Below, in pieces: positions 23,268-38,143 of a stretch of 47,343 nt of DNA. The translations under genes were made by a program, and so were the position numbers. Each line of letters opens with the position of its first letter. Positions within the stretch are counted from its first letter, which is position 1. Source of the DNA: a virus; IMG/VR virus record IMGVR_UViG_3300033182_000361, positions 1-47,343 of that record; one strand, written 5' to 3'. A model generated the notes under the pieces. It searched no databases. It was not told where the DNA came from and saw only the letters and a list, made by a program, of their open reading frames with translations.

Positions 23268-23828
23268 TTAATATGCTTTCCAAGTCCCTCTTATCTGAGA
23301 AGGAACAAAATCCAAATTTGCAGCAATTACAATACGCTTACCATCTCCATCATCAGGAACCCAGTGGGGAATACTTGCATCAAAGATAAGAACAAGTCCA
23401 TTCTCTACTGGTCTGCAAGAATTACCAATACAAATAGGTGCAGCATTCTCTTCAACATCAATGTAGAAGATAACTGATAGAGTAGATGGGAAATGGGTGT
23501 GATATTTAGTCCCTTCTTTAGGACCATACATCATTGCCCACATGTTTATGACATCAAATACTCCATTGGTAGAGAAGTATTGATTTCCTACAGAGTGTGC
23601 AAGATCCTGAAAATAATCTGTAATCGGATCAAATCTCTTAGCATCTATCTGCTGAATATTCCAAGCAGATCTCCAAGAAGCATTTACATTGCAATCTTGA
23701 CAGTTGTTAGGAAATTCCTTTCTGTGGTCTAAAACAAGTTGCTTGAACTCATCCAGTCTTTCAGTCCACATGGTCTGAAAGATAGGCATTTCAACTTCAA
23801 CTTTTAAAAGTTCTACATTGGTAGGCAT
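23268..23828 (-). CDS. 2OG-Fe(II) oxygenase-like protein (TIGR02466 type)
   Basis: 186 residues. YHTHFPSTLSVIFYIDVEEN gives the H-x-H and the SG-yY-like strand, SIPHWVP the distal His, and GDGKRIVIAANLDF the Arg for 2-oxoglutarate. Strongly similar in layout to the next gene upstream (HDHFSSSWSCVYYVDVEED), so the pair is a tandem duplication. Both lie between the S8 fibre gene and glutaredoxin. Substrate unknown. Confidence 0.75.
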   Translation of the reverse strand: MPTNVELLKVEVEMPIFQTMWTERLDEFKQLVLDHRKEFPNNCQDCNVNASWRSAWNIQQIDAKRFDPITDYFQDLAHSVGNQYFSTNGVFDVINMWAMMYGPKEGTKYHTHFPSTLSVIFYIDVEENAAPICIGNSCRPVENGLVLIFDASIPHWVPDDGDGKRIVIAANLDFVPSQIRGTWKAY

Positions 23829-24391
23829 ACCTTATCGATGTTCATAGCAACTGCAATTCTTCTTCCCTTTGTTGGTGGAACATGATGGGTAAGTAGTCCA
23901 GGGAACAAGACTAGCATTCCATTTTTTACATGAACTTCTTTATCTTCTAAGAAGATAGGAGCAACATCCTCCTCAACATCAACATAATAAACACAGGACC
24001 ACGAAGATGAGAAATGATCGTGCGGGATTGCTTGATCACCCTTCTCCATGACAACTGCCCATAGAGAAACAACTCTATACTCTGCATGAGTATCAAACAC
24101 ATGCTTCACTATGTAGTCTAGCACAAACAAAGCATAGTCTGCAACAGGTTGAAACCTATTGTCAGTTTCTAGTGTATCCCACTTCGTTAACCAAGCTTTA
24201 ACAGAATGACCTGCCGTCTCTTGAGTATCAAGATACTCTGGATCGTCAGATCTTTTCTGTAAAATAATTTCTTTTAGATAAGAGTTTAAGTCTGAGTTAT
24301 CTGCTTCTACAACAAAGGTGGGCAGATCACTGACCACCTTATCATAGTGAATAACTCTAGATATATGTTCTCTCTCCATCTTGTCCGCCAT
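23813..24391 (-). CDS. 2OG-Fe(II) oxygenase-like protein (TIGR02466 type)
   Basis: 192 residues. IPHDHFSSSWSCVYYVDVEE holds the metal-binding H-x-H/D, LLTHHVPPTKGRRIAVAMNI holds the distal His and the Arg. The start overlaps the end of the S8 fibre gene by 35 bases; a second ATG four codons in is possible. Paralogue of the downstream gene. Coupling to a fibre gene makes fibre hydroxylation a reasonable but untested idea. Confidence 0.75.
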   Translation of the reverse strand: MADKMEREHISRVIHYDKVVSDLPTFVVEADNSDLNSYLKEIILQKRSDDPEYLDTQETAGHSVKAWLTKWDTLETDNRFQPVADYALFVLDYIVKHVFDTHAEYRVVSLWAVVMEKGDQAIPHDHFSSSWSCVYYVDVEEDVAPIFLEDKEVHVKNGMLVLFPGLLTHHVPPTKGRRIAVAMNIDKVCLPM

Positions 24392-27300
24392 AAGTAACGA
24401 TGCTCAATTCCCCAAGATCTTCAAGGGCAGGAATACTATTATACACTCTCATGGTGAATCCGTTAACCGTTCTGTCACTGATTCTTAACTCAACGATACC
24501 ACCTGGGAAGGCATTGATGCCACTTCCGATGCCAATGACTGCATAGTCTGTATCGTTCATGGGATCAGCAAAGTTCACGGTGTAAACTCCAGTCGAAGTT
24601 TGAACAAGAGAACTGATGTTATGGGAACGATCGCCAGGGGTGTAGTCGCTGTTACCGACACCCAGATTGCTGTTCATGTACCAAGAGGTAGCACGACCCT
24701 CAAACATTTGGGTATAAGTGCAGGTCTTGAGACCAGACAGGTTCTTAAACTCACCGACTCTGTTGACTTTGTGGAAGTCATAGTTAAAGACTTGGATCGA
24801 GTTGCCCATGTTACCCATGGTTGTCCCGATACCAGCACCATAGTAAAGAAGTTGAGGTGTCTGATCTGTGACCAGAATCTCCGTATAAGTTCCAGTCTCG
24901 GTTACATTATCATCATAGGTGATAGGAGTTGTGGTTCCAAACCCTACGGCAGATCCATCAGGTGCATAATAGAATCTGATGGGATAGTTTGCCTGCTGTG
25001 CAGCGTTCTCGAAGCGGTAGGTCATACCAACTTCAAATCTCAAGTAAGGAGATTCATAACCCTGAACATTGACAGATCTATCGGATCCAATGCCATAGTA
25101 TCTGTGATCGGTGGTCTTAGTACCAATCGTAACAGGAAGGGGCTTGAAGGGTCTCTCAGACTCTGTGTAAAGGTTCTTAGCGGTGTCTGCAGCACCCGTG
25201 AGGGTGGAGAAACTGGCGCTGCTAGCAAACAGTGCGTTGTTCGCCTGAGAAGCGAGTCCAGCGAGCGTAGCGTAGGTAGCAATGCCAGCGACGATTGCTT
25301 CCGATGCGATACCTGCAAGGGTTGCTCTCGGTGCTTCGTTGATCGTTACGGTAACGATACCAGCAGAGACGGGGCTAACATCAAGACCAGCATCGAAGTC
25401 AACTGTACCAGCAGTACCAACAAGGGAACCACTATCTCTGACGATAACACCAGAACCAGCAGCAACGATGTTTGTCAGTTGAGAACCATCACCGATGAAT
25501 CTCGGAGCAGTGATGTCATTGTTAGATGTGATTGTGGCATCAGCAGACAGTGCATTAGCAGTTGCTGCCACTGTTGCATTGTCAGCAAGAGTGGCAGTTG
25601 CTGCTGTCGTTGCTTGAGTTGCAATTCCAGCAAGGTCTGCGTAGTCTGCATAGGTTGCTCTCTCAATGGATACTCCAGGAGCAAGACTGTTTGCAGTCTG
25701 AGCAACAGCTACGGTATCCGAACCAGTAATGGTAACAATACCAGCAGAGATCTGAGATACTGTGAGGTTCTCACCAAAGTTAATGGTGGATGCTGTACCA
25801 ACTGGAGTGTCATCATCTCTAACTTCTACACCAGCACCAGTACCAACAACACCAGTAATACCAGAACCATCACCGAAGAATGCACTGGCAGTAATGTTAC
25901 CAGTGGTAACAACATTGAGGTTAGTACCGATACCAGACGGACCAGGATCTTGAGGTACAGAGTGAGCAACGAAGGTCAGGTTCGGTCTAGAACCACGAAC
26001 GATCAAGCTCTGACCCTTAGCAAGAGCAAGGTTGTCGATCTGTACATCCTGCAGAGGAGCAAGTCTCAGACCATAAACAAGGTAGTCAGACTCAGTAAAT
26101 TCAGCAACACCACCAGAGGACAGACCAACCGACATACCAACGGTGGAATCAGAGTTCTGGTTAGTAGCGTGAACAGTTACCAGACTATCTTCTTCGGCAG
26201 TAAAGAACTCAAGGTTAGTATTGATCTGGAAAGGAGGATTGTAGCTCAGAGTACCAGATCTCTTTCTACCATGAACCAGAGCAGAGTCTGCACTCAGTTT
26301 GTCAAACTTTCTAGTAGCGAAAGCAAGGAAGGAGATGTTCGGGTCAAAAGAAGCAACAAAGATCTTATCACCAGGCTTAACACCGACCTTCTCAATCAGT
26401 CTCGTGCCACCTCTATCAAGAGGAATACCGTAGGTGATGTAGTCGCTCTGTTTGAATCCAGGAGTACTGGAGATACCGATAGAGAATGTAGAACGGAAGT
26501 CGTTCTGGTTTGCAACACCGATACTAACTTCAAGAAGGTTGTCTGCCTCATACAGAAGAACAGGTTCAACCACACCATTAGTCAGCGTAGTTTTAATGGA
26601 AGCGAGTCTTCCTACCTCAGCAATAGCAGCAACAGGTGTTGTGAAGTTGGTGATCGTAGACCAAGGAGATGTATGAGCAACTCCAGAACTACCATCAGCA
26701 TTAGAAAGATGTCTTACTCTTACATAGAAGGTATGACTAGAGTTAAGACCATCAGAAATAACTTGAGAGAGTGAAGTATTGTTTGCACCAACACTGGTAA
26801 AGACAACTTGAGTAAATCCAATGTCTTCTGCGACTTCGAATTCAACTGCCTTGAGAGTACCAGATACCGCTACACCATCAATAGCAACGAAAGCACTAGA
26901 TCTTAGTTCAATACCGAATCTCTGCTGAGTAGTAACACCGTTAGCAGGAGCAAGTACAAAGGGAGCAGCAACACCAGGAGCATTACCCAATGTGGCGAAG
27001 GAAACAATACCTACAGAATAGGGAGAAGTATAGGAAGTGAATGCCGTGCCATCATCAAACGATGTGTGTCTTACACGAGCATAGTATGTTGTGAATCCAA
27101 GCAGAGTAACATCAACTGTTTGCTCTAAATCTGTTTGAAGTGGATCAGATTCCCAATCAATACCACTAAAGTCTGCCTGGCGAGACAGTTGCATTTCAAC
27201 GGATCTGAGTGTACCAGATACCGTAGTACCACCGATAGCAGAGTAGGCACTAGATCTAAGAATTAGACCTTCAGTATTAACACCAACATCATTATTAATG

Positions 27301-29294
27301 GGAGATTGAATGCTGGGTTCGTTAATACCACCAGCTTCTGTAAGAATACCAGCGTTTACATCGAGATAGGTGACCTGAATCTGACCAGATCCATCAGCAG
27401 TTCTTTGGTTGAAACTTCCAGTCCACCACTGAGAATCATCTTGACCATAAACCGAAGAGGTATACTGATCAAAGAATAGATCAGTGCCAGTCTGTGTACT
27501 ACCACCAGCAACTACAGTTCCACCAGTAGTAGTGCCAACACCGACACCTTGACCGTAGTCATTCAGCAACCAGGATCTAACATCAGCAGAAGTAGCACCA
27601 GGATTTCTCTGCAGATACAGTGCAACCAGACCAGTTACTACAGGTGCAGCAGCAGAGGTTCCGTTAAAGTAGCAATCATAGTGACTTGGATTATCATATC
27701 TCTGATAGTCTGCATAAGAACCTGAGATCAAACCTGCAGCAAGAGTTTCATCAGCAGGTGCATAGATGTCAACACCAGGACCACTGTTAGAGTAAGATGC
27801 TTTTCTTTCCTTGTAGTTAGATTCTACAAAGTCATCCATGGCACCGACATTGATGACAGGATGATAGCCAGTAGTAAGATCAGCGCCAATACCCTGCGGG
27901 TTCATCCAGTCTCTGTGAGATGTCGGAGTTCTCTGACCACCAAACTCTGGTCTAGTATCATTGGCACCAAACCACTGGTCCTGAACACCATTGAGTCTGT
28001 AGGGATCGGTAAGTCCAACACCAATGTACTGGTTGTTGTTACCAGCAGCAGAAACATAGATGACACCAGCATCCATCATCTCATCGCCAGCATCATTAGT
28101 GGCGCTGCTTCTAGAGGAGGAAGACCAGGATCTATACGCAAAGAGAACTTGGTTATTGAAACCATAGATCATGTCTTCGACACCAGACGGAGCTCCGCCA
28201 GAAACAGGCATCGTAATGCTGCTAGTGACTCCAAGGAATTTATAGTTTACAGTTGCAGATCCATTAACAGCAGCTTGATATCCCCAGGAACCATTAACAA
28301 CGGTCGGGTTTTGTCTACCAGTTTCGCTGTTAACTGGTTTGTATTGATGGAAGAACTTGATCAGATCATAGTTGGTTTCAATGTCCATGTTGACATTATC
28401 ACCAATGCCAGGCATGTTCCAGATATTTGCCTTGAATGCCAGACCAAAGTTCTTACCAGCAGCAAGAGATGCACAAGCAGTTCCGTGACCACTAGTAAGA
28501 GAGCTGGCACCAGCAGTTCCTACGCCAACAGATCCATATCTAGTGTAACCAGAAGGAATAACAACTTCAGGAAGAGTATTAAACTCAGTAGATCTAGCGT
28601 TATTATCTTCCCACCAAGACTCTGCAGAAGCAGTTGTGATACCAGTGCTTCCATCCTCTAGGGTAAAAGTAAATCCATTAGTTTGGAACCAACCAGGATC
28701 CAAGAAGTATGGGAAGTCGAGAACAATATCTCTTACTCTACTCGTTCCATCATCATTCAGGAACTCTGGGTGAGACTGCAGAACACCAGAGTCATGAATA
28801 ACAATGTCAACATTTCTACCATCATAAAGGTAGTTTACATTGCCAGTCTTAGGAGCAATGCTTCCAGTTACATTAGGCCAGAAGTCTCCGTTAGAACCAA
28901 TACCAGAAATTCTAGGGACTGCCCAGTTAGTTCTGTTCTCCTCTGCAGATGTTGGAGATGATGCTGGAGGATTATTAGGAGAGTTAAGATCCCTATAGAT
29001 TTTTACATCACTAGCCCATCTCTGTGGCTGCACAAGTTGGGGTCTAGGAAAGTTATCTCGGTTGTCCTTAAGTGATAACTCGATCCATTTTACATAAGGA
29101 TGACGAGCAATCTCAGATGCTTCCTCCTCCGTCAACTCATAGGTGCCACGAGTCGCACTATGAGCTTTCTCATCAACACAAGTAATCTTTCGATCAGGAA
29201 TTCCATCCCGATTTGAGTCTAATGTAAGAGCACTATGAATATCATCCCAGTGTTCTGGACTCGTAACAGCCAGTGTATATCTTTTAAGTGTCAT
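24357..29294 (-). CDS. giant fibre-like protein with subtilisin (S8) domain
   Basis: 1645 residues. Residues 1-78 resemble an I9 propeptide (YELTEEEASEIARHPYVKWI). Residues about 160-585 form an S8 peptidase with all key residues: Asp168 (DIVIHDSG), His270 (SGHGTACAS), oxyanion Asn419 (SAAGNN) and Ser547 (FNGTSAAAP). Two Fn3-like repeats follow (each with LRSSA-, YYARVRH or FYVRVRH), then two related modules (SDYITYG, SDYLVYG) and fibre modules with FFGDGSGITGV and RFIGDGSQLTNI. The C-terminus is a probable head domain. Late promoter 33 bases upstream. Likely a virion protein that degrades or processes surface protein; role inferred. Confidence 0.85.
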   Translation of the reverse strand: MTLKRYTLAVTSPEHWDDIHSALTLDSNRDGIPDRKITCVDEKAHSATRGTYELTEEEASEIARHPYVKWIELSLKDNRDNFPRPQLVQPQRWASDVKIYRDLNSPNNPPASSPTSAEENRTNWAVPRISGIGSNGDFWPNVTGSIAPKTGNVNYLYDGRNVDIVIHDSGVLQSHPEFLNDDGTSRVRDIVLDFPYFLDPGWFQTNGFTFTLEDGSTGITTASAESWWEDNNARSTEFNTLPEVVIPSGYTRYGSVGVGTAGASSLTSGHGTACASLAAGKNFGLAFKANIWNMPGIGDNVNMDIETNYDLIKFFHQYKPVNSETGRQNPTVVNGSWGYQAAVNGSATVNYKFLGVTSSITMPVSGGAPSGVEDMIYGFNNQVLFAYRSWSSSSRSSATNDAGDEMMDAGVIYVSAAGNNNQYIGVGLTDPYRLNGVQDQWFGANDTRPEFGGQRTPTSHRDWMNPQGIGADLTTGYHPVINVGAMDDFVESNYKERKASYSNSGPGVDIYAPADETLAAGLISGSYADYQRYDNPSHYDCYFNGTSAAAPVVTGLVALYLQRNPGATSADVRSWLLNDYGQGVGVGTTTGGTVVAGGSTQTGTDLFFDQYTSSVYGQDDSQWWTGSFNQRTADGSGQIQVTYLDVNAGILTEAGGINEPSIQSPINNDVGVNTEGLILRSSAYSAIGGTTVSGTLRSVEMQLSRQADFSGIDWESDPLQTDLEQTVDVTLLGFTTYYARVRHTSFDDGTAFTSYTSPYSVGIVSFATLGNAPGVAAPFVLAPANGVTTQQRFGIELRSSAFVAIDGVAVSGTLKAVEFEVAEDIGFTQVVFTSVGANNTSLSQVISDGLNSSHTFYVRVRHLSNADGSSGVAHTSPWSTITNFTTPVAAIAEVGRLASIKTTLTNGVVEPVLLYEADNLLEVSIGVANQNDFRSTFSIGISSTPGFKQSDYITYGIPLDRGGTRLIEKVGVKPGDKIFVASFDPNISFLAFATRKFDKLSADSALVHGRKRSGTLSYNPPFQINTNLEFFTAEEDSLVTVHATNQNSDSTVGMSVGLSSGGVAEFTESDYLVYGLRLAPLQDVQIDNLALAKGQSLIVRGSRPNLTFVAHSVPQDPGPSGIGTNLNVVTTGNITASAFFGDGSGITGVVGTGAGVEVRDDDTPVGTASTINFGENLTVSQISAGIVTITGSDTVAVAQTANSLAPGVSIERATYADYADLAGIATQATTAATATLADNATVAATANALSADATITSNNDITAPRFIGDGSQLTNIVAAGSGVIVRDSGSLVGTAGTVDFDAGLDVSPVSAGIVTVTINEAPRATLAGIASEAIVAGIATYATLAGLASQANNALFASSASFSTLTGAADTAKNLYTESERPFKPLPVTIGTKTTDHRYYGIGSDRSVNVQGYESPYLRFEVGMTYRFENAAQQANYPIRFYYAPDGSAVGFGTTTPITYDDNVTETGTYTEILVTDQTPQLLYYGAGIGTTMGNMGNSIQVFNYDFHKVNRVGEFKNLSGLKTCTYTQMFEGRATSWYMNSNLGVGNSDYTPGDRSHNISSLVQTSTGVYTVNFADPMNDTDYAVIGIGSGINAFPGGIVELRISDRTVNGFTMRVYNSIPALEDLGELSIVTYGGQDGERTYI

Positions 29295-29367: not shown

Positions 29368-30168
29368 ATGAACATCGTTACTGGTGCCAAGGGATTTATT
29401 GGTGGGCACTTTGTCAGAAGCATGGAAAATGTGCTTGAAATTGACATCGATAATTGCTTTGATCTGCTAAACAAATTCAATCGATGGGATGAGGTAGACA
29501 TGATCATCCATCTGGGTGCTCGGTCATGGACTACCGATAAAGATGTCGATGCAATCTATCGCTATAATATTGACTATAGTATAAAATTATTTGAGAAGGC
29601 AATCGAGTATGGTATCCCAGTCAAGTACGCATCTTCGGCATCTACTTATGGTAAGTGTATGTCTACAGACGGCATTATTAATCCGCTGAACTATTATGCA
29701 CTATCAAAAGCAACCGTGGATTACTGGGTGCAAGATAACATGCATCGGTTCTCTCACATTCAAGGATTCAAGTTCTTTAATGTCTTTGGCAGTGGAGAAG
29801 TACACAAGGGAGAGCAGGCTAGTCTCGTAAGTAAGTTCAAGTGGCAGTCTGCTACTGGAAAGATTCACCCCTTCGCTGGATCAGATAAAGTATACAGAGA
29901 TTACATCTGGGTTGGAGATATTGTGAATGTTGTTCTGTCTAACAGTGCAGGCAGTGGTATCTATGACCTTGGCACTGGAACAGCAGTGAGTATTCAACAG
30001 GTTGCAGATTGCATTGCACAAAAAACCGAGGCGATGGTAGAGGAAGTTCCTTTCCCACCAAACCTCGTTGGTAAGTATCAGTTTAATACTGAAGCAGATA
30101 TGAATTGGTTATCTGACTATAACTTTAAGACTGTCTTTGATTATGTCAATCACCACAGTGAATTCTAA
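29368..30168 (+). CDS. NAD-dependent sugar epimerase (HldD-like)
   Basis: 266 residues, short-chain extended SDR. Gly motif GAKGFIGG (6-13), DMIIHLGARS, catalytic Y110-x3-K114 (YYALSK), and FNVFGSGE. Layout fits ADP-L-glycero-D-manno-heptose 6-epimerase (HldD), although UDP-sugar epimerases share these motifs. It stands alone on the plus strand and converges with the cupin gene by 23 bases. Context with kinase and nucleotidyltransferase of HldE type supports the heptose assignment. Confidence 0.75.
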   Translation: MNIVTGAKGFIGGHFVRSMENVLEIDIDNCFDLLNKFNRWDEVDMIIHLGARSWTTDKDVDAIYRYNIDYSIKLFEKAIEYGIPVKYASSASTYGKCMSTDGIINPLNYYALSKATVDYWVQDNMHRFSHIQGFKFFNVFGSGEVHKGEQASLVSKFKWQSATGKIHPFAGSDKVYRDYIWVGDIVNVVLSNSAGSGIYDLGTGTAVSIQQVADCIAQKTEAMVEEVPFPPNLVGKYQFNTEADMNWLSDYNFKTVFDYVNHHSEF

Positions 30169-30511
30169 TTGAGTCAGAGTCAAAGTGTTGCGTTGAGAAC
30201 TCAAACAATTCCGAGTCTTCCAACGCAACCATCTGATGTCTAAGACCTACAGGAATATGAAACTTATCTCCTGGTTCTAGCACCAAAGTCTCAGCATCTT
30301 CAAGACTATCTACATTTCCATAGAACAATAAGATGAGACCGCTTTGTAAGTAAAAGGTCTCATCTTTTATTTTATGGTAGTGCCATGAGCATCTCTTTCC
30401 TTTCTCAAAGAAAAGAAGTTTGCCACAATATTGGTCGTTGTTTACGATCCACTTTTCATGACCCCAACCTTTGGGAACATGTTTAATTTGGCGAGAAGAA
30501 CTCATTTGCAT
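30146..30511 (-). CDS. cupin (phosphomannose isomerase type-II-like)
   Basis: 121 residues from the ATG with AAGGGAG upstream; another ATG two codons in has the better spacing. Cupin motif 1 is SWHYHKIKDETFYLQSG (two His, Glu) and motif 2 GDKFHIPVGLRHQ. PKGWGHEKWIV at the start is typical of mannose-6-phosphate isomerase/GDP-mannose pyrophosphorylase C-terminal cupins. In this cluster it may be a sugar isomerase; the substrate is unproven. Confidence 0.75.
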   Translation of the reverse strand: MQMSSSRQIKHVPKGWGHEKWIVNNDQYCGKLLFFEKGKRCSWHYHKIKDETFYLQSGLILLFYGNVDSLEDAETLVLEPGDKFHIPVGLRHQMVALEDSELFEFSTQHFDSDSIRIHCGD

Positions 30512-30815
30512 TGACTCCCTTATCATCTATGTAGTAATCACCTGATGGTTTTCCCAGATGAAGTTCATGAAACTTACATCCCCAACCCCTGATCTGATTG
30601 TAAGTGAAATCAAAGAACTCTTTCTCTGCTAGTTCACGACTATTATTATACCTACCCATACCTCTTGCTGTAAGGTAGGTAACATAGTGACCATCATCAT
30701 ATAACTGATTGATCAGATCAATCCTTTCTTGGATTGGAGTGGCACCAGTGTACCTAGTTTCTTCTGTAGTTCCAGGAGTACAGATAGTGCCATCAATATC
30801 AACAGTGTATCTCAT
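30483..30815 (-). CDS. HAD-superfamily sugar phosphatase
   Basis: 110 residues. DxD motif at D6/D8 (VDIDGTICTPG), motif II YLTARG, motif III/IV KPSGDYYIDDKGVN. It lacks the long cap and the zinc loop of GmhB, so it is a capless HAD related to capsule/nucleotide-sugar cluster phosphatases. Its place between HldE-kinase-like and cupin genes makes it the candidate for removing the C7 phosphate of heptose-1,7-bisphosphate. Coupled to the kinase (ATGA overlap). Confidence 0.7.
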   Translation of the reverse strand: MRYTVDIDGTICTPGTTEETRYTGATPIQERIDLINQLYDDGHYVTYLTARGMGRYNNSRELAEKEFFDFTYNQIRGWGCKFHELHLGKPSGDYYIDDKGVNANEFFSPN

Positions 30816-31606
30816 AGGTCTAAAATCGAATCAACATCATCTATTGTCATGGTATATGTCCCAGGATTCTGCACGGCAATCGCTGCTGCTCTATTGGCAA
30901 AGGCGATTGCTTCCTCAATAGATGGAAGTTGAATGTGATAAAAGACTAGAGCGGCAAGGAAAGTATCGCCAGCACCAGAGACATCAAACACACGCTCAAT
31001 TTCCTTCACAGGGTACTGAGTCTTGTTCCAGATAGCACCGTTGGCACCCATGGTTACAATCATATTCTTGGCAGGAGGAATGGAGTTCGGATCCAGCGAC
31101 TCAAACTCTCTCTGATTAATTTTATAGATCACATTGTCAAACCCCAAAGGAAGTTTGGTTGCCTTAGTATCTACAAAAATTTTAACATCGGGAAGTCTTC
31201 CTGCAATGTAAGAGATAACTTCTGCAACATTAACAAATCCCTTATTGTAATCAGAGATAACTACAGCATCATACTGTGCATGCATCAATGCCATCTGCAG
31301 TTGTGCCTGATGAATGGTTTTAATCTCAGGTTCTACATCAACACGAACAATTTGTTGGTTTGTTTTCTCATCAATGTATCTGGTCTTGACAATCTTCTCC
31401 TTGTTAGTGACAAAGTTTACATTGATGCCAAGAGACCGCAAGTTCTCATGAACATTTGCTGCCATACCAGGAGCAGTCTGCTTCTCACGATACTTAAGGA
31501 CAGGAACAGGTGCCTCAGGACTCAGACGATTGCATGTCCCGTACAGCCATTCATCGGTACAACTATCCCCGATCAATAATACATTGTATTGTCTTGCTAG
31601 TTGCAT
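30812..31606 (-). CDS. HldE-kinase-like PfkB sugar kinase
   Basis: 264 residues. LLIGDSCTDEWLYG at the start, NRLSPEAPVPVLKYREKQT and PGMAANVHENLRSLG are characteristic of the heptose-7-phosphate 1-kinase domain of HldE/RfaE. The PfkB anion hole is DVSGAGDTFLAAL (GAGD 211-214). The reaction would be D-glycero-beta-D-manno-heptose-7-P to the 1,7-bisphosphate. The start lies inside the end of the nucleotidyltransferase gene by 44 bases. Confidence 0.8.
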   Translation of the reverse strand: MQLARQYNVLLIGDSCTDEWLYGTCNRLSPEAPVPVLKYREKQTAPGMAANVHENLRSLGINVNFVTNKEKIVKTRYIDEKTNQQIVRVDVEPEIKTIHQAQLQMALMHAQYDAVVISDYNKGFVNVAEVISYIAGRLPDVKIFVDTKATKLPLGFDNVIYKINQREFESLDPNSIPPAKNMIVTMGANGAIWNKTQYPVKEIERVFDVSGAGDTFLAALVFYHIQLPSIEEAIAFANRAAAIAVQNPGTYTMTIDDVDSILDL

Positions 31607-31967
31607 ACTCTTCTATCCTAGGGAAAAAATGTACTTCGGCAGCGTACATGGAACCAATGACTGACTTTCCTTCCCAGTCAGATCCTACTACCATTATATC
31701 AGGTTTACTTACCTTGACGCAATTCTCCAGTTCCACATCCGAACCAAAGAGCAGAACATGATCTACAGTCTTGAGACTCTGCAGCATGTATGCTCTGTCT
31801 TCGGCGGTATTTATTGGGCGATTGGGTCCTTTCTTTTCTCTAACTCTTTCGTCACTGTCAATGGCAACGATAACCCTATCACCTTGGGACCTAGCATACT
31901 CTAGGAGTTGTAGATGCCCAGGGTGAAGGATATCAAATGTTCCGTTTACGAAAACAGTCTTAGTCAT
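31563..31967 (-). CDS. HldE-adenylyltransferase-like protein
   Basis: 134 residues. Nucleotidyltransferase signature HPGH at 15-18 (NGTFDILHPGHLQLLEYARS), then VIVAIDSDERVREKKGPNRP and the conserved PNRPINT-DRAYML region; VVGSDWEGKSVIGS closes the fold. These are the hallmarks of the C-terminal domain of HldE (heptose-1-P adenylyltransferase). Here it is a free-standing gene ahead of the kinase, the reverse order of the bacterial fusion. Confidence 0.8.
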   Translation of the reverse strand: MTKTVFVNGTFDILHPGHLQLLEYARSQGDRVIVAIDSDERVREKKGPNRPINTAEDRAYMLQSLKTVDHVLLFGSDVELENCVKVSKPDIMVVGSDWEGKSVIGSMYAAEVHFFPRIEEYATSKTIQCIIDRG

Positions 31968-33756
31968 TCTTAACGGTGATCAGTTTACCATGCTCAGGAA
32001 GATACAGATACTCAATACCAGAGTTAGCAAGAGTCCGAACAGCGTCGTCCAGGGTCTCAACCAAAGGTTCACCACCAAGATTGAAACTGGTGTTAAACAG
32101 AATCGGACAACCCGTAGCATCATAGAATGCTTTGATGAGTCTGTAGTAGTTTTCATTCTGTTCTAGGGTAACAGTTTGGATTCTACAGGTGCCATCAACA
32201 TGAATGATTGCAGGAATCTTTTCTTCGATTCCTTCACGACACTTGACAGCGTACATCATGAAGGGAGTATCTTCCATGCCACGAAGGTCGAACCATTCAT
32301 CAGCATGCTCTGCCAAAATAGATCCAGCAAAAGGACGGAAGTATTCTCTCTTCTTAACCAAGTTGACAAAATCTTTTCCATCAGGATCACGCGGATCATA
32401 AAGAATAGAACGGTTACCAAGAGCACGAGGACCTGCCTCAGACTTACCTTGGAACATTGCAACGATGTTTTCAGATGTAATTAAATTAATCACATCTTCG
32501 TTAGAAGCATCGCTCACAACACCTTCATACTTGTCCGCAGTGTCAATGATTTCATCCAAACTATATGTATAGTTGGGACCATAATAAAGGTCATTGATTT
32601 GTGCGGGAAGGGAAACATTCTCCTTACCTTCTTGAGTCTTGTAGTAGACATACAGAGCAGCACCAATAGCAGTACCGCCATCATTGCTTACAGGTTCAAC
32701 GAAAAGATTGATACCATCCTTCTGCAACTCATCAAGATACCAGTAGTTAGCAACACAGTTCAGACCATATCCACCAGACAGAACTACATTTTTCTGACCA
32801 GTGAGATCAACTGCCTTACGAATCAATTTTAGAACTGCTTCTTGAGTCTCTGTCTGCACAGCATAGGCAACATCCCTACGGTTCTGTAGTTTAGTGATGT
32901 CCTCATGATCATGATTGTTCAGGTAATCATACTCTTGAATATTGATATGTGCGGCATTGGGATAGGTAGGAATCATCACATTCCTGTCTACAGTCCCAGT
33001 CTTCTTAAAGATCTTAGGTACATCCTCATTGGGAGCACCATAAGGGAACAGACCCATGGTCTTGCCTGCTTCAATAGCATGCCAACCACAATATTGAGTC
33101 GCTGCTTCGTATGCTTTTACGATACCTGCAGTCTCGTCCAGAATATATTCAAACTCTCCTTCTTCTCCAGGATATGCCTCTGCATTGGGCATCTTATTGA
33201 CATAGTTTGTGGTGCAGGGACCACGAGTTCCTAAGTGTTTGTAAACTGTGTTGATGCCATGGGGGAAAGTGCAATTATAAATGCTCTCAGTCTCCCAAAC
33301 TGTCTCAGCAAATCCCATAACCTGAAAGTTAAGGAAGGTGCCTGCACCATCTACAACAACAGCAGCTGCCTTCTCAAAACCAGAACGATAGAAAGCACAA
33401 GCAGCGTGAAGTTTGTGGTGAATGTTACCCACATCTACTACTTGAGGATGAAGTTTTTCTGGATCTGGTTCAACATCTTTAATCAGTCCCAGTTTCCTCG
33501 CCATGCCAACATAGACTGGTTCATGCGAGTACTCAAGTCTACCAGCATCCTGACTCATCAACTGAGTGTGTGCTACCACGAGGTAGTCAAGTCTGTCAGT
33601 GTAATCAAGGATCTTAAGCATGGATGCCAAGGGACCACCATCATACTTACGGCGAGAAAGTCTCTCTTCTTCCACCGCAAAAACAATTTCACCATCTTTG
33701 AGGAGACAAACTCCTGCGTTGTGTCCCCGTGTAATAGCAGCAATCCACTGTGTCAT
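31960..33756 (-). CDS. carbamoyltransferase (NodU/CmcH family)
   Basis: 598 residues. N-terminal ITRGHNAGVCLLKDGEIVFA, then VEEERLSRRKYDGG, the Kae1-like metal/ATP region around HHKLHAACAFY, AVVVDGAGTF, and C-terminal KSEAGPRALGNRSILYDPRD plus REYFRPFAGSIL. It transfers a carbamoyl group from carbamoyl-phosphate (via ATP) to a hydroxyl, often on sugars. It overlaps genes on both sides by 4-8 bases. In cyanophages it has been linked with surface-sugar change; target unknown. Confidence 0.88.
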   Translation of the reverse strand: MTQWIAAITRGHNAGVCLLKDGEIVFAVEEERLSRRKYDGGPLASMLKILDYTDRLDYLVVAHTQLMSQDAGRLEYSHEPVYVGMARKLGLIKDVEPDPEKLHPQVVDVGNIHHKLHAACAFYRSGFEKAAAVVVDGAGTFLNFQVMGFAETVWETESIYNCTFPHGINTVYKHLGTRGPCTTNYVNKMPNAEAYPGEEGEFEYILDETAGIVKAYEAATQYCGWHAIEAGKTMGLFPYGAPNEDVPKIFKKTGTVDRNVMIPTYPNAAHINIQEYDYLNNHDHEDITKLQNRRDVAYAVQTETQEAVLKLIRKAVDLTGQKNVVLSGGYGLNCVANYWYLDELQKDGINLFVEPVSNDGGTAIGAALYVYYKTQEGKENVSLPAQINDLYYGPNYTYSLDEIIDTADKYEGVVSDASNEDVINLITSENIVAMFQGKSEAGPRALGNRSILYDPRDPDGKDFVNLVKKREYFRPFAGSILAEHADEWFDLRGMEDTPFMMYAVKCREGIEEKIPAIIHVDGTCRIQTVTLEQNENYYRLIKAFYDATGCPILFNTSFNLGGEPLVETLDDAVRTLANSGIEYLYLPEHGKLITVKND

Positions 33757-34754
33757 TTGCCAAATCCTTTAGTAGTTTTTTCTTTCTTATCTTCTTTCCA
33801 GGACATGTCTGGCTTATTCTTTACTGGTTTACCCAGTTTATCCTTACAAGATTTCAGAACATTTTGAATCTGTTCCTCAGTCATCTCCATGCATTCATCA
33901 TTTTGATAGTCAGCATAGTCTTCCATAGTTAATCTGATGGGAGAGAACGACCTCTTGTCCTCACCAAGATCAATTATATCAAAGTTCGGATCTTCTGGGT
34001 AAGAGATATTGATAGGATAAGTAGAACCAATAACTGCAGTAACAGAAGTATCAACTGCCTTAGCGATGTGCTGACCAACAGAGTCGCAACCAAGGAAATG
34101 ATCTGCCCGACCAATGATCGATGCCCAGATACGAATGTCAGGAATCTGTGGGAGGATGAACGGTTGATCAGACTCACCTTCTTCTGTTTGGAAGGGGAAC
34201 TCAGACATCACAATAACGCAATAGTCTTTCTTGAGTTCGTTGATGATCTTACTGATGTCACCAAGGTTGAAACTTCTAGAGGTAGGATCAAAAATGTATC
34301 CACCATTATCCTGCACACCTCTACCGAAAGGTTGAACAACAATAACCTTTTCCTTTCCAGTAACTTTGATCGCTTCGTCTACTAACTGAAGACCTTGAAT
34401 GCCTTCGTGCTTTGCAAGTTTGATGGTAGGTTTAGGAAGTTCTCTGGGTTCTTCGACACCATTGATTTCCATGTCGAATGCTTGAGCAATACTACACTCT
34501 TGGTTGTAGTAATGCCAGCGACGATATGGTTCTGGAGTGACACAATCTCTACGCTTGATCTGATCTTCGAACAGATTCTTGTGCCAGTTATCGTAAGCGT
34601 GTTTGTGAAGAATGGGGTGTGCCTTGTAGAAGTTCATCCCACCTTCACAGACGATAATAAAATCGTCGTGGGTTTCTGCATATTTTTCAAGTGCAGGGAT
34701 GGAGGTAATGACTCTACCAGCTCCTCCGTTAATGAAGAATGCTTTAGATCTCAT
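33753..34754 (-). CDS. GT9/heptosyltransferase-like glycosyltransferase
   Basis: 333 residues. N-terminal FFINGGAGRVITSIPALEKY and the C-terminal half with IVVQPFGRGVQDNG, RADHFLGCDSVGQHIAKAVD, then TAVIGSTYP match the GT-B layout of ADP-heptose:LPS heptosyltransferases (D-S-H-A and G-T). Late promoter 20 bases upstream makes it the first gene of the sugar island. The C-terminal 45 residues are Lys-rich. The acceptor is unknown. Confidence 0.65.
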   Translation of the reverse strand: MRSKAFFINGGAGRVITSIPALEKYAETHDDFIIVCEGGMNFYKAHPILHKHAYDNWHKNLFEDQIKRRDCVTPEPYRRWHYYNQECSIAQAFDMEINGVEEPRELPKPTIKLAKHEGIQGLQLVDEAIKVTGKEKVIVVQPFGRGVQDNGGYIFDPTSRSFNLGDISKIINELKKDYCVIVMSEFPFQTEEGESDQPFILPQIPDIRIWASIIGRADHFLGCDSVGQHIAKAVDTSVTAVIGSTYPINISYPEDPNFDIIDLGEDKRSFSPIRLTMEDYADYQNDECMEMTEEQIQNVLKSCKDKLGKPVKNKPDMSWKEDKKEKTTKGFGK

Positions 34755-34780: not shown

Positions 34781-35518
34781 TTACAGAAAGAAAACCTGAT
34801 TCACTCGATTGTGTTCGGTGAACATCCCATGATCGATGTTCTGCGAATGCATTACATCGGCTTCATAAAAGATACATCTATTATACACCATCTCTGCTTC
34901 GTATTCAACTTTCCATTCTCTATCACCATACAACCACTCTCTAATATATGGATAGCATTGCTCTGGTTTTGTAACCTCGCTATCAAATCCTTCGGGTTTA
35001 TCAATATAATCTATCACATTATATGGAACAGACATCTGACCCTTGTAAGAATATAAATTAGTTCCTCCCTGACATTCTTCTGGGGTGTTTAGATAGATCA
35101 CCACTCCGAACTGGTTAAAGTCCGTGGTGCTATCAGTCATATAAGAGTCTTGATGGGGAATGCTACACCAAGGTGCATGAAATACACTATGATAGTTTAA
35201 AACATTGCACATGAATCCAACAGCATCCCATTGAAATTCATACATTTTTTTATGAGTATGCTTTCTCCACAAAGAGTTGTCTAAGCAATACTTATCAAAG
35301 AATGGTTTAAGTTTATCTTTTACTTCAGATGTTTCTTGGAATACTCTCTGACCAGGAAGACCATTGATCAAACTCTGGTCTTTTTTTCTTTCAGATTTGA
35401 GGGCAAGTTCTCTTACTTCGTCTGGATTTTTATAAAAATTATCGACAATAACAATAGTTCTATTCTGCGGTCCTACTTTTTTAATAGTGACATCAGGGTT
35501 ATCATTCAGTTCAAACAT
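34781..35518 (-). CDS. 2OG-Fe(II) oxygenase-like (DUF6445-type)
   Basis: 245 residues. WCSIPHQDSYMTDSTTDFNQ holds the H-x-D, FGVVIYLNTPEECQGGTNLY the core strand, CIFYEADVMHSQN the distal His, and HNRVNQVFFL the C-terminal Arg strand. Starts MFELNDNPDVTIKKVGPQNR. Longer than the other oxygenases here and of another subgroup. Terminator immediately upstream isolates it from the adhesin gene. Confidence 0.65.
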   Translation of the reverse strand: MFELNDNPDVTIKKVGPQNRTIVIVDNFYKNPDEVRELALKSERKKDQSLINGLPGQRVFQETSEVKDKLKPFFDKYCLDNSLWRKHTHKKMYEFQWDAVGFMCNVLNYHSVFHAPWCSIPHQDSYMTDSTTDFNQFGVVIYLNTPEECQGGTNLYSYKGQMSVPYNVIDYIDKPEGFDSEVTKPEQCYPYIREWLYGDREWKVEYEAEMVYNRCIFYEADVMHSQNIDHGMFTEHNRVNQVFFL

Positions 35519-35590: not shown

Positions 35591-36472
35591 TTAGGACCAA
35601 GTGGTAACAACCACAAGTCCACCACCACCCCAGTCACCCCAGCACTGGTTGCCGTCACAAGTGTTTGCATTGTGACCGCCACCACCAGGGAACAGAGAAG
35701 GTGCAGAGCAACAACCTCTAGTTCTAGCAGTAGAACAACGAGAGACACCAAAGTTACCACCTTGCTGCCAAGGACCAACAGGACCAGAAGCAACAGACCA
35801 GGAGAACGAGTGACAGTTCACATGCTTCAGTTCACCACCAGAGAGTCCACAGATGTAGAATTCGTTTTCGGGGTTCATGCTAGAAGGTTTGGTTTGAGCA
35901 GCAGGCCAAGCAGCAGAACAAGCATTAAAGCAGTTGTTTCTTTGTGCAACCTTCAAGCAGGAATAGCAGCTGTTGGTGCATCTATGGGTAGAGTACGAAC
36001 CACCTTGCATACAGAAGGTGCCTAGTCCACCACCAAGAACGAACGAAGGACATCCATAGAAACCACAACCAGTTCTACCATGGCAGCAACCACAACAAGA
36101 ACATCTGCTAGTAGATCCAGCACAAATGGTATACTGAGTAGAACCAGCGGTAAAGTGTCCACAGTTAGCATATTGCATCTTGGTAGCGTAACCACCGCCA
36201 CCTGCACCCATTCCAGGTCCATTACCGCAGCAACGAGCACCAGAACCAGATCCACCACCAGAAACAATCTCGAATTGAATACTGGTTACTCCATTGGGAA
36301 CTGTCCAAAGATAGCAGCATCCACCATTGCAAGGAACATTGTGGCAGCAATTAAAGTAGAACATTCTACAGACAATTCCTGTAGAAATTCCAGTTACTTT
36401 GGTGGGACCAATTGAATTAGCTTCGAACGCTGCCCCACCATCAATTTTTTTAAATGACTGATAATCTGCCAT
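35591..36472 (-). CDS. Cys/Gly-rich adhesin-like protein, paralogue A
   Basis: 293 residues with about 30 cysteines and several Gly runs. Starts MADYQSFKKIDGGAAFEANS. Contains YLWTVPNGVTSIQFEIVSGG, GGGGYATKMQ, and CSCCGCCHGRTGCGFYGC. The Gly-rich blocks resemble the polyglycine sandwich of phage adhesins (as in S16 gp38), and the end is GGGGLVVVTTWS. Largely identical at DNA level to 37259-38143. Cys would need oxidation or metal for folding. It follows a chaperone-like gene; a receptor-binding role is inferred. Confidence 0.65.
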   Translation of the reverse strand: MADYQSFKKIDGGAAFEANSIGPTKVTGISTGIVCRMFYFNCCHNVPCNGGCCYLWTVPNGVTSIQFEIVSGGGSGSGARCCGNGPGMGAGGGGYATKMQYANCGHFTAGSTQYTICAGSTSRCSCCGCCHGRTGCGFYGCPSFVLGGGLGTFCMQGGSYSTHRCTNSCYSCLKVAQRNNCFNACSAAWPAAQTKPSSMNPENEFYICGLSGGELKHVNCHSFSWSVASGPVGPWQQGGNFGVSRCSTARTRGCCSAPSLFPGGGGHNANTCDGNQCWGDWGGGGLVVVTTWS

Positions 36473-36477
36473 GGTTA

Positions 36478-37227
36478 TCAGGCTCCTTCAGTCGTTGTAT
36501 CCGTAGAATCAAGTCCAGTTTCGGGGGATTCGCCAGTAAAGGAATCAACATCGCCAGGTTCTCTTGGCCAGACAATCAGATAAGTCTTGTCTCCAACACT
36601 TGCCCATGTCTCAGTAATGTCTCTCAACTTCTGACGATATTCTCTCCAGGGGCTAGCAAATTCTTCAGGAGCGTCTGCAGGAATCTTATTGTCAGACTGT
36701 CTGAGCAGTGCATCTCTAGCACTTCTTACGGCATCCCAACCAAATGTCTTTTGAACTTCACCCTCTTCAGACCACTCATCTTCCTCAGTATGAGGACCAG
36801 AGAATCTACCAGTATTCCAGGTCTCTGTCTCAAAATTATAATGGAAGGAGCACATATCAAACACTTCATGGAAGTGATGATAGTCATTAAGAATAGGATT
36901 AGGTTCTGTATCAGGACCAGCAGGAGTTTCAATCATCATAGGTCCTTCGATACCACCCCAAAGAGCGATAGCATTCATCGTATGAGTTCTTGCGTCCAAC
37001 TCTACGACTCTGCATTCAACAGGGGGATCTCTATCCTCGGGTTCATCAGAGGGGAAAGCATGCTCCTCTACCCACTTAGGATTCTCATCCGTCCCAATAT
37101 TTCTATACCAAATAGTAATACGATCAGGACCAGTATAGGTACAGATACCACTCATGTTAGTATTTTGAGTGTCACCATACCACTCAGTAGGAATAGGATA
37201 GATAACTGTTTTTGTAATCTCAGCCAT
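36478..37227 (-). CDS. tail-fibre assembly chaperone-like protein
   Basis: 249 residues. The C-terminal part FGWDAVRSARDALLRQSDNK, DAPEEFASPWREYRQKLRDI matches the phage tail assembly chaperone pattern (RD-LL--sD...p---YRQ-LRD). The N-terminal 100 residues (MAEITKTVIYPIPTEWYGDT...) are of unknown role. It sits between the two Cys-rich paralogues and ends five bases before paralogue A starts, so it probably helps fold or attach them. Own late promoter at 37253. Confidence 0.65.
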   Translation of the reverse strand: MAEITKTVIYPIPTEWYGDTQNTNMSGICTYTGPDRITIWYRNIGTDENPKWVEEHAFPSDEPEDRDPPVECRVVELDARTHTMNAIALWGGIEGPMMIETPAGPDTEPNPILNDYHHFHEVFDMCSFHYNFETETWNTGRFSGPHTEEDEWSEEGEVQKTFGWDAVRSARDALLRQSDNKIPADAPEEFASPWREYRQKLRDITETWASVGDKTYLIVWPREPGDVDSFTGESPETGLDSTDTTTEGA

Positions 37228-37252
37228 TTTTAAGTAGCACTCCTTGTAGTAG

Positions 37253-37259
37253 TATTTAT
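37253..37259 (-). promoter_or_regulatory. late promoter
   Basis: ATAAATA on the minus strand, overlapping the stop of paralogue B and 26 bases before the chaperone-like start. A good AAGGAG site precedes the start. Confidence 0.6.
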
Positions 37260-38143
37260 CAGGACCAAGTGGTTACAACGACGAGACCGCCGCCACCCCA
37301 GTCACCCCAGCACTGACCACCCTGAGTCGAACCAGAGTATCCACCACCACCAGGGAACAGGGAAGGAGCAGAGCAGCAACCTCTATTATTACCATAAGAG
37401 CAACGACCTACGCCGAAACCTCTCTGAGACTGCCAAGGACCAACAGGACCAGAAGCAACCGCCCATGCACCAGAGTGACAGTCCACATGCTTCAGTTCAC
37501 CACCAGACAACCCGCAAATGTAGAATTCGTTTTCGGGGTTCATGCTAGAAGGTTTGGTTTGAGCAGCAGGCCAAGAAGCAGAACAAGCATTATAGCAGTT
37601 GTTTCTTTGTGCAATCTTAAGACAGGAGTAGCAGCTGTTGGTGCATCTTTGAGCGGCATAAGAACCACCCTGCATACAGAATGTACCAAGTCCACCACCC
37701 AACACGAAGGAAGGACAACCATAGAAACCACAACCAGTTCTACCATGGCAGCAACCACAACAAGAACATCTACTGGTTGAACCAGCACAAATGGTATACT
37801 GAGTAGCACCAGCGGTAAAGTGTCCACAGTTAGCGTATTGCATCTTAGTGGCATATCCGCCACCGCCGCCACCCATTCCAGGACCGTTACCACAGCAGCG
37901 ACCACCAGATCCAGATCCACCACCAGAAACAATTTCAAATTGGATCGACTTAACCCCAGTCGGTACAGTCCAAAGGTAACAGCAACCGCCATTACAGGGA
38001 ACATTATGACAGCAATTGAAGTAGAACATTCTACAAACAATTCCTGTTGAGATTCCTGTTCTACTTACTTGGGTGGGACCAATAGTGTTGTTAAGAACAG
38101 CTGCGTCTCCATTAATTTTCTTAAAACTTTGATAATCAGCCAT
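37259..38143 (-). CDS. Cys/Gly-rich adhesin-like protein, paralogue B
   Basis: 294 residues, the same layout as 35591-36472: MADYQSFKKINGDAAVLNNT start, WTVPTGVKSIQFEIVSGG, CSCCGCCHGRTGCGFYGC core and GGGGLVVVTTWS end. The central two thirds are nearly identical. The differences gather at the N-terminus (linker) and near the C-terminus (PWQSQRGFGVGRCSYGNNRG here against PWQQGGNFGVSRCSTARTRG). Behind a late promoter (38177). Receptor-binding function inferred. Confidence 0.65.
   Translation of the reverse strand: MADYQSFKKINGDAAVLNNTIGPTQVSRTGISTGIVCRMFYFNCCHNVPCNGGCCYLWTVPTGVKSIQFEIVSGGGSGSGGRCCGNGPGMGGGGGGYATKMQYANCGHFTAGATQYTICAGSTSRCSCCGCCHGRTGCGFYGCPSFVLGGGLGTFCMQGGSYAAQRCTNSCYSCLKIAQRNNCYNACSASWPAAQTKPSSMNPENEFYICGLSGGELKHVDCHSGAWAVASGPVGPWQSQRGFGVGRCSYGNNRGCCSAPSLFPGGGGYSGSTQGGQCWGDWGGGGLVVVTTWS

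Follow-up and report, generated by a model that had tools for sequence, protein, structure and literature searches.

A seven-gene cassette of the ADP-heptose type in T4-like cyanophages, with a cupin as candidate substitute for the isomerase GmhA

A cassette of seven genes in a viral DNA of 47,343 nucleotides (IMG/VR record IMGVR_UViG_3300033182_000361, positions 1 to 47,343; the whole stretch is called the window here) very probably encodes a pathway of the ADP-heptose type, its enzyme activities being predicted from protein families. What is new is that GmhA, the isomerase that opens the canonical route, is missing from this cyanophage heptose cassette. The chances are about even that the genes form a self-contained pathway from sedoheptulose 7-phosphate to ADP-heptose, with a fibre protein as the likeliest acceptor. 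The most demanding version, a heptose pathway with a cupin for GmhA that places a (carbamoylated) heptose on the phage's own tail fibres in hosts not using heptose, appears rather unlikely to be right in every part.

The window is assignable, as judged by its genes, to a T4-like cyanophage of the Kyanoviridae: it contains PhoH, a gp32-like SSB, and baseplate and tail genes, and 372 phage records match it, almost all of them cyanophages. The seven open reading frames of positions 29368-34754 are confirmed, and their coordinates and strands agree with an earlier, sequence-only reading (Table 1). That reading had listed them as adjacent genes for an ADP-heptose-type pathway with a carbamoyltransferase and a heptosyltransferase-like glycosyltransferase. 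At the level of sequence families the pathway type stood, but the roles of the cupin and the HAD protein and the wide conservation of the set had been missed.

Table 1. Genes of the cassette and of the adjoining fibre locus
Feature	Position	Strand	Basis
Subtilase fused to tail-fibre repeats, possible acceptor	24357..29294	-	PF00082 E=1.8e-24; phrog_6942 + phrog_30742 tail fibre
HldD-like ADP-L-glycero-D-manno-heptose 6-epimerase, 266 aa	29368..30168	+	TIGR02197, 1eq2
D-lyxose-isomerase-like cupin, 126 aa, proposed sedoheptulose-7-phosphate isomerase	30146..30526	-	AF2, Foldseek, profile matches
Capless mini-HAD phosphatase, 110 aa, proposed GmhB-step phosphatase	30483..30815	-	TIGR01689, motifs
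PfkB-family D-glycero-D-manno-heptose-7-phosphate kinase (HldA / HldE domain I type), 264 aa	30812..31606	-	TIGR02198, 4e84
Putative heptose-1-phosphate adenylyltransferase (HldC / HldE domain II type), 134 aa	31563..31967	-	TIGR02199
NodU/TobZ-type O-carbamoyltransferase, 598 aa	31960..33756	-	PF16861, PF02543, phrog_1601
GT9/GT-B-fold glycosyltransferase, likely heptosyltransferase, 333 aa	33753..34754	-	AF2/Foldseek, phrog_8954
DUF6445 / 2OG-Fe(II) oxygenase-like protein, candidate associate of the glycosyltransferase	34781..35518	-	PF20043 E=1e-14
Two Gly/Cys-rich fibre-like genes, possible acceptors	35591-36472, 37259-38143	-	other side of island
Fibre-assembly-like gene	36478-37227	-	between the two Gly/Cys-rich fibre-like genes

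The top NCBIfam model of the HldD-like protein is TIGR02197, ADP-heptose 6-epimerase, with 175 bits (next unrelated family, GalE, 45), that of the kinase is TIGR02198, heptose-7-phosphate kinase, with 153 bits (ribokinase, 50), and that of the nucleotidyltransferase is TIGR02199, heptose-1-phosphate adenylyltransferase, with 114 bits (TIGR01518, glycerol-3-phosphate cytidylyltransferase, 71); all three scores lie below the curated equivalog cut-offs of 274.6, 345 and 181.5, respectively. Because the best families of the three enzymes are those of heptose metabolism, and by wide margins, the pathway is read as a heptose pathway; the profile search that had been named beforehand as a possible refutation thus returned ADP-heptose families. 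In the PDB, the epimerase matches E. coli HldD best (1eq2, E=1.9e-36), with the Y..SK and HKG..AS motifs aligned, and the kinase, which carries SPEAPVPV and GAGD motifs, matches the heptose-7-phosphate kinase 4e84 (E=4.6e-18). The PDB matches of the nucleotidyltransferase are other nucleotidyltransferases, the closest solved structures being cytidylyltransferases; its nucleotide is putatively that of an ADP-sugar.

Of course, the kinase, the nucleotidyltransferase and the epimerase could use another sugar phosphate and have the heptose families merely as nearest relatives. Scores below the equivalog cut-offs, the cytidylyltransferase structures and the many copies outside fibre loci that lack HldD would fit such a reading. 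It is nevertheless improbable: three independent enzymes and the GT9 fold of the transferase all indicate heptose, the HKG motif of HldD and the SPEAPVPV motif of HldA are retained, and the same cupin accompanies GDP-heptose genes of the HddA/HddC type.

The carbamoyltransferase exceeds the cut-offs with both its Carbam_trans_N and its Carbam_trans_C domain (PF02543, E=4e-26, and PF16861, E=5e-60), and also matches phrog_1601 and, in the PDB, the novobiocin carbamoyltransferase 9s2t, TobZ and others. Its assignment to pyrimidine biosynthesis (PMC9146016) is rejected, since the family is that of O-carbamoyltransferases.

With the canonical GmhA-HldE-GmhB-HldD-WaaC/F pathway the phage set has both HldE domains, HldD and a GT9-fold transferase in common. 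It differs in that the HldE domains are separate genes, as in HldA/HldC, in that a carbamoyltransferase is added, and in that it has a D-lyxose-isomerase-like cupin and a capless mini-HAD where homologues of GmhA and GmhB would be expected. Sedoheptulose 7-phosphate is an intermediate of the Calvin cycle and the pentose phosphate pathway, and the proposed route would draw it from this host pool. The cupin would convert it to D-glycero-D-manno-heptose 7-phosphate (the GmhA reaction), the PfkB kinase would phosphorylate C1, the mini-HAD would take off the 7-phosphate (the GmhB reaction), the nucleotidyltransferase would yield ADP-D,D-heptose, and HldD would epimerize the latter to ADP-L,D-heptose. 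Finally, the GT9-like enzyme would transfer the heptose and the carbamoyltransferase would decorate it, in an order and on an acceptor that we infer. If true, sedoheptulose 7-phosphate ties a central carbon metabolism under viral control to a sugar of the virion or of a surface. Neighbouring transketolase genes were considered as a sign of sedoheptulose supply and discarded: they occur in only 8 of 80 contigs, in none of the fibre type, and two of them are E1-like.

GmhA had not been seen by the sequence-only reading, which advised looking for it elsewhere in the genome. Searches for GmhA/SIS proteins (TIGR00441, PF13580) bear this out: none turned up in the window or among 14 related contigs, and nine of ten complete cyanophage genomes carrying the cupin gave no match either. 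The tenth, SynMITS9220M01, has a divergent GmhA in addition to the cupin.

The mini-HAD bears the name “phosphoheptose isomerase” in public databases. As a true GmhA it is rejected, being a HAD protein without a SIS match. It matches TIGR01689 (E=2.9e-6), a model of EcbF/BcbF-like proteins and not of GmhB, and its DxD, T, K and DD motifs are invariant. Fold, chemistry and co-occurrence suggest that it replaces GmhB, a candidate role not captured when it had been listed, correctly, as a HAD phosphatase.

The cupin, which had earlier been listed but given no role, is the strongest candidate for the GmhA step. Its AF2 model (pLDDT 91) finds D-lyxose isomerases as top Foldseek matches (7nzp/7nzo/7nzq/2y0o), although the cupin fold is promiscuous and many cupins score nearly equally; a profile search likewise matches 7nzo and 2y0o. 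H49, H51, E56, H97, K54 and E109 are invariant in 20 sequences, and the metal ligands HxH, E and H (H49, H51, E56, H97) align with positions 69, 71, 82 and 137 of 2y0o. All 20 members match PF07385 (Lyx_isomer) weakly, under the gathering cut-off (16.3 versus 20.8 bits for the protein of the window). Fold, metal-ligand positions and the YC.K, KxETF and EFS segments are common to the phage cupin and the D-lyxose/D-mannose isomerases 7nzo and 2y0o; the phage protein is, however, shorter, with an identity of about 25%, and would act on a phosphorylated heptose. The pairs D-lyxose/D-xylulose and D-mannose/D-fructose have the same stereochemistry at C2 as heptose 7-phosphate/sedoheptulose 7-phosphate, and the D-lyxose ketol-isomerase reaction is stereochemically equivalent to that of GmhA. 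The public annotation of the cupin as “cysteine dioxygenase” is weaker by fold, the first such match ranking 43rd. If the present reading is true, two database names that have hidden a pathway are corrected.

The genomic context points in the same direction. The cupin is present in each of the 31 cyanophage records that contain the kinase, and the two genes still occur together in the reshuffled arrangements of S-SM2, P-TIM68, S-T4 and Sf-CH5. Seen from the cupin, 39 contigs with both flanks contain the PfkB heptose kinase in 37 cases, an HddA-type kinase in one and a SIS gene in none; a few cupin copies (L157, L171, L069/L070) have no heptose kinase in their neighbourhood. The cupin of Bellamy and that of SynMITS9220M01 are each flanked by an HddA-type heptose-7-phosphate kinase and a nucleotidyltransferase, the flanking genes of Bellamy scoring 279 bits for HddA and 63 bits for HddC. 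The cupin is the one gene common to the ADP-heptose cassette and this non-homologous GDP-heptose set, and the ADP- and GDP-heptose routes have only the GmhA and GmhB steps in common. From fold, chemistry and co-occurrence we lean, if only slightly, towards the cupin as the sedoheptulose 7-phosphate isomerase; if true, this is a non-orthologous replacement of GmhA, applicable to hundreds of viral contigs. Cellular genomes yielded 12 cupin loci; they say little about context, since several are plainly phage contigs that ended up in MAGs.

Alternatively, ADP-heptose may be made as proposed, but with a host GmhA as isomerase, and the cupin may act elsewhere, e.g., as isomerase or epimerase of a later sugar intermediate. 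The cupin superfamily has many sugar-nucleotide epimerases and isomerases among its members, the sugar loci of L157 and L171 have the cupin but no heptose kinase, and a heptose-free host LPS (see below) is compatible with a host GmhA. The cupin's sharing between the two heptose sets and its closest folds, which are ketol-isomerases, speak against this alternative, as does the one control cyanobacterium, S. elongatus, in which TIGR00441 has no match. We consider a host GmhA unlikely.

The cassette is already known in T4-like cyanophages and is not unique to the window. Dozens of them have it, usually with the order kept (P-SSM2, S-SSM7, S-CAM1/3, Sf-FS3); in P-SSM2 the order, GT9-carbamoyltransferase-AT-kinase-HAD-cupin/HldD, is identical, and in public records of this set the two misleading names recur. 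In related viral contigs the kinase has as neighbours the nucleotidyltransferase in 57 of 57, the cupin and HldD each in 43 of 43 and the HAD in 42 of 43, a clustering far above chance. The same genes form the “LPS gene” set of P-SSM2, S-SM2 and S-SSM7 (T4-GC 302-308; Sullivan et al. 2010, PMC3037559). The passages of that paper on the set note the co-occurrence of T4-GC 304, 305, 307 and 308, leave the function unknown with stuffer DNA as a possibility, and mention neither a heptose route nor a missing GmhA nor an isomerase reading of the cupin. If the present reading is true, a product has been found for a widespread gene set left in 2010 as “LPS genes or stuffer DNA”. Functionless stuffer for headful packaging is very improbable because the median dN/dS is 0.11-0.24 across all seven genes (29-44 distinct alleles; HldD-like 0.16, cupin 0.11): every cassette gene is under purifying selection. 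Moreover, catalytic residues are invariant and gene linkage outlasts rearrangement in the four reshuffled phages.

The glycosyltransferase hits PF01075 weakly (E=0.014; 15.1 versus a cut-off of 22 bits) and matches phrog_8954; a search of PDB sequences with the GT9 alignment gave no relevant match. Its AF2 model (pLDDT 78) has GT9 (3tov), WaaC, WaaF and TibC as top Foldseek families (E 6e-10 to 1e-8), and ranks 1-27 all belong to these. Having the fold of the ADP-heptose transferases WaaC, WaaF and TibC, it is likely a heptosyltransferase. At what we take to be the position of the catalytic Asp of WaaC it has Arg (GGAGRV). With the protein O-heptosyltransferases TibC/AAH (BAHT family; PMC4358343) it shares the GT-B fold (4rap/4rb4) and a gene position next to adhesin-type surface proteins; identity is only about 12%, and the four-cysteine iron finger described for that family is absent, with no such Cys cluster in the phage protein.

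Fibre genes flank the island on both sides (24357..29294 and 35591..38143), as had been claimed. Likewise borne out is the claim that the hosts' LPS is not heptose-rich: that of marine Synechococcus WH8102 and CC9311 is reported to be free of heptose and Kdo (PMC4515613). The WH8102 phage Sf-FS3 has the full cassette all the same. Since Synechococcus LPS is without heptose, the virion's own fibres are a better candidate target than host LPS. By gene position, the likeliest acceptor is the tail-fibre or adhesin product of a neighbouring gene, a tentative choice that falls somewhat short of even chances. The third use once considered, a signalling metabolite, finds no support, the glycosyltransferase being present in most fibre-type copies (30 of 41, with HldD in 41 of 41; other copies have them in 5 and 13 of 39, respectively).

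Cyanophage “LPS genes” are usually read as a means of changing the host surface. The heptose would then go to LPS or a surface polysaccharide and alter the infected cell, e.g., for superinfection exclusion. In S-SM2, P-TIM68, S-T4 and Sf-CH5 the core genes indeed lie in large polysaccharide-type clusters with several glycosyltransferases, near hli/pstS, and the transferase has WaaC and WaaF among its leading fold matches. The LPS core of Pseudomonas, moreover, is known to contain carbamoyl-heptose, made via WapO (PMC8005017), a carbamoyltransferase that acts on L-glycero-D-manno-heptose, as is proposed for the phage enzyme. The Pseudomonas sugar, however, sits in a Kdo-heptose core, and the proposed phage hosts have no such core to extend (PMC4515613). 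The cassette also lies inside a tail-fibre locus, where in 35 of 40 contigs fibre-like genes stand upstream of a single dedicated glycosyltransferase. Host-surface modification is a serious but doubtful alternative to modification of the fibres. In most fibre-type contigs the DUF6445 gene adjoins that of the GT9 enzyme.

All seven adjacent genes that the sequence-only reading had described are present where it had placed them. Their assignment to ADP-heptose also withstood profile searches: the epimerase, the kinase and the nucleotidyltransferase have ADP-heptose enzymes as top NCBIfam matches, far ahead of the next unrelated family, although none of the three scores reaches the curated equivalog cut-off. 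In the alignment of the epimerase with E. coli HldD (1eq2, E=1.9e-36) the Y..SK and HKG..AS motifs coincide; the kinase aligns with the heptose-7-phosphate kinase 4e84, SPEAPVPV and GAGD being retained. The carbamoyltransferase belongs with the NodU/TobZ enzymes. The GT9-like protein gives a weak match by sequence; in its predicted structure (pLDDT 78) it resembles GT9 proteins, PDB ranks 1-27 all being 3tov, WaaC, WaaF or TibC. Yet the iron finger of TibC is absent, and Arg occupies the position that we take to be that of the catalytic Asp in WaaC.

GmhA was not seen in the first reading, and GmhA/SIS models likewise matched nothing in the window or 14 related contigs; the genomes of P-SSM2, S-SSM7, Sf-FS3, S-CAM3, S-SM2, S-T4, P-TIM68, Sf-CH5 and Bellamy gave no match either. 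A single divergent copy in SynMITS9220M01 was the sole match among the ten genomes, all of which contain the cupin. Its best folds are the D-lyxose isomerases 7nzp, 7nzo, 7nzq and 2y0o (25-26% identity), and D-lyxose isomerases are also among its best profile matches. H49, H51, K54, E56, H97 and E109 are unchanged across 20 sequences and align to positions 69, 71, 82 and 137 of 2y0o, its metal ligands, and to conserved neighbours. D-lyxose, D-mannose and D-glycero-D-manno-heptose share their configuration from C2 to C4; the required isomerisation is therefore of the type catalysed by D-lyxose isomerase.

Two public gene names look wrong: the "phosphoheptose isomerase" is a small HAD (mini-HAD phosphatase), not an isomerase, and the "cysteine dioxygenase" is the D-lyxose-isomerase-like cupin. 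Two phage-like contigs, L081 and L073, carry besides the cupin a second, separate gene set, a GHMP heptose kinase with an adjoining divergent GmhA.

Neither the kinases nor the nucleotidyltransferases of the GDP-heptose route are related to those of the ADP-heptose route. In Bellamy and SynMITS9220M01 the cupin is flanked by a GHMP kinase and a nucleotidyltransferase; the Bellamy proteins score 279 bits against HddA and 63 bits against HddC, respectively, and the SynMITS9220M01 pair was aligned with them. Because the two routes have only the GmhA and GmhB steps in common, a cupin common to both fits an isomerase role. Among 39 contigs with both cupin flanks, a PfkB kinase occurs in 37, a GHMP kinase in one and a SIS gene in none. 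Two contigs lack both kinases and have the cupin within other sugar loci, so the family is not strictly confined to heptose loci.

The window, a 47-kb viral contig, carries genes of T4-type tail and baseplate, SSB and PhoH; its closest phage records are, nearly without exception, cyanophages. P-SSM2, S-SSM7, Sf-FS3 and S-CAM3 have the same cassette order, some with additional genes inserted, and S-SM2, P-TIM68, S-T4 and Sf-CH5 keep the linkage despite reshuffled genes and a different genome region. In IMG/VR contigs retrieved via the kinase, the nucleotidyltransferase adjoins it in 57/57, and cupin (43/43), HldD (43/43) and HAD (42/43) follow downstream within reach, counts that include near-duplicates and hence are not independent. 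The phage collection contains 31 cyanophage records that have the kinase, and every one of them has the cupin too (hypergeometric p nominally about 1e-41 for a total of 372 cyanophage records, relatedness ignored). A passage of PMC3037559 raises the possibility that the cassette is "stuffer DNA". All seven genes, however, are under purifying selection (median dN/dS 0.11, for the cupin, to 0.24), and this explanation is therefore disfavoured.

In fibre-locus copies the frequencies are 41/41 for HldD and 30/41 for the GT; in copies distant from fibre genes, some on cut contigs, they are 13/39 and 5/39. By this difference, one core occupies two settings. One is beside fibre genes, where a carbamoyltransferase and a single GT accompany it; the other is a polysaccharide-type cluster that has several GTs. 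The window shows the first, its island being surrounded by fibre and 2OG-oxygenase-like genes; through such oxygenases, fibre hydroxylation ahead of glycosylation is conceivable. Transketolase-like or E1-like genes lie near the heptose kinase in some polysaccharide-type clusters, 8/80 contigs in all.

Virion fibres and host LPS had both been named as possible targets. The doubt about heptose-rich LPS in marine picocyanobacteria finds support in two marine Synechococcus strains, WH8102 and CC9311, whose LPS reportedly contains neither heptose nor Kdo (PMC4515613). Sf-FS3, a phage of WH8102, has a complete fibre-type cassette. Protein heptosylation has a precedent in TibC (PMC4358343), carbamoylated heptose in WapO (PMC8005017). 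Together with the flanking fibre genes, this leads us to prefer, with modest confidence, fibre glycosylation to host LPS.

The gene set itself is already known from cyanophages. The reading as a complete GmhA-less heptose pathway, the proposed GmhA and GmhB substitutes, and the fibre/polysaccharide split did not turn up in the literature searched, which covered few subscription papers. In two contigs the cassette stands amid RCC1-like repeat (GTLWAWG..) fibre-like proteins; its GT is divergent in L040 and absent from L047.

Coordinates of features in the window and in related loci (L-numbers)
Feature	Location	Remark
Cupin, candidate for GmhA step	window 30146-30526 (-)	
HAD, candidate for GmhB step	window 30483-30815 (-)	
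Subtilase domain (PF00082) fused to tail-fibre repeats	window 24357-29294	single 1645-aa protein
Tail fibre with carbohydrate-binding module CBM5/12	window 38232-41891	
Pair of very similar fibre-like proteins rich in Gly and Cys	window 35591-36472, 37259-38143	fibre-assembly-like gene between
2OG-Fe(II) oxygenase-like genes	window 23813-24391, 34781-35518	one each side of island
Both doubtful names	NC_006883.2 239311-239655, 239636-239992 (L060)	equivalents in L061-L063, L076-L081
Second set: GHMP kinase and divergent GmhA	L081:17923-19373, L073:8368-9805	
Cupin without nearby heptose kinase	L157:5528-5893, L171:8992-9387, L069:8007-8369	other sugar loci or alone
Transketolase-like or E1-like genes	L076:11422-12630, L078:9768-10913, L064:4708-5816	
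Cassette amid RCC1-like proteins	L040:318-4830, L047:10222-16267
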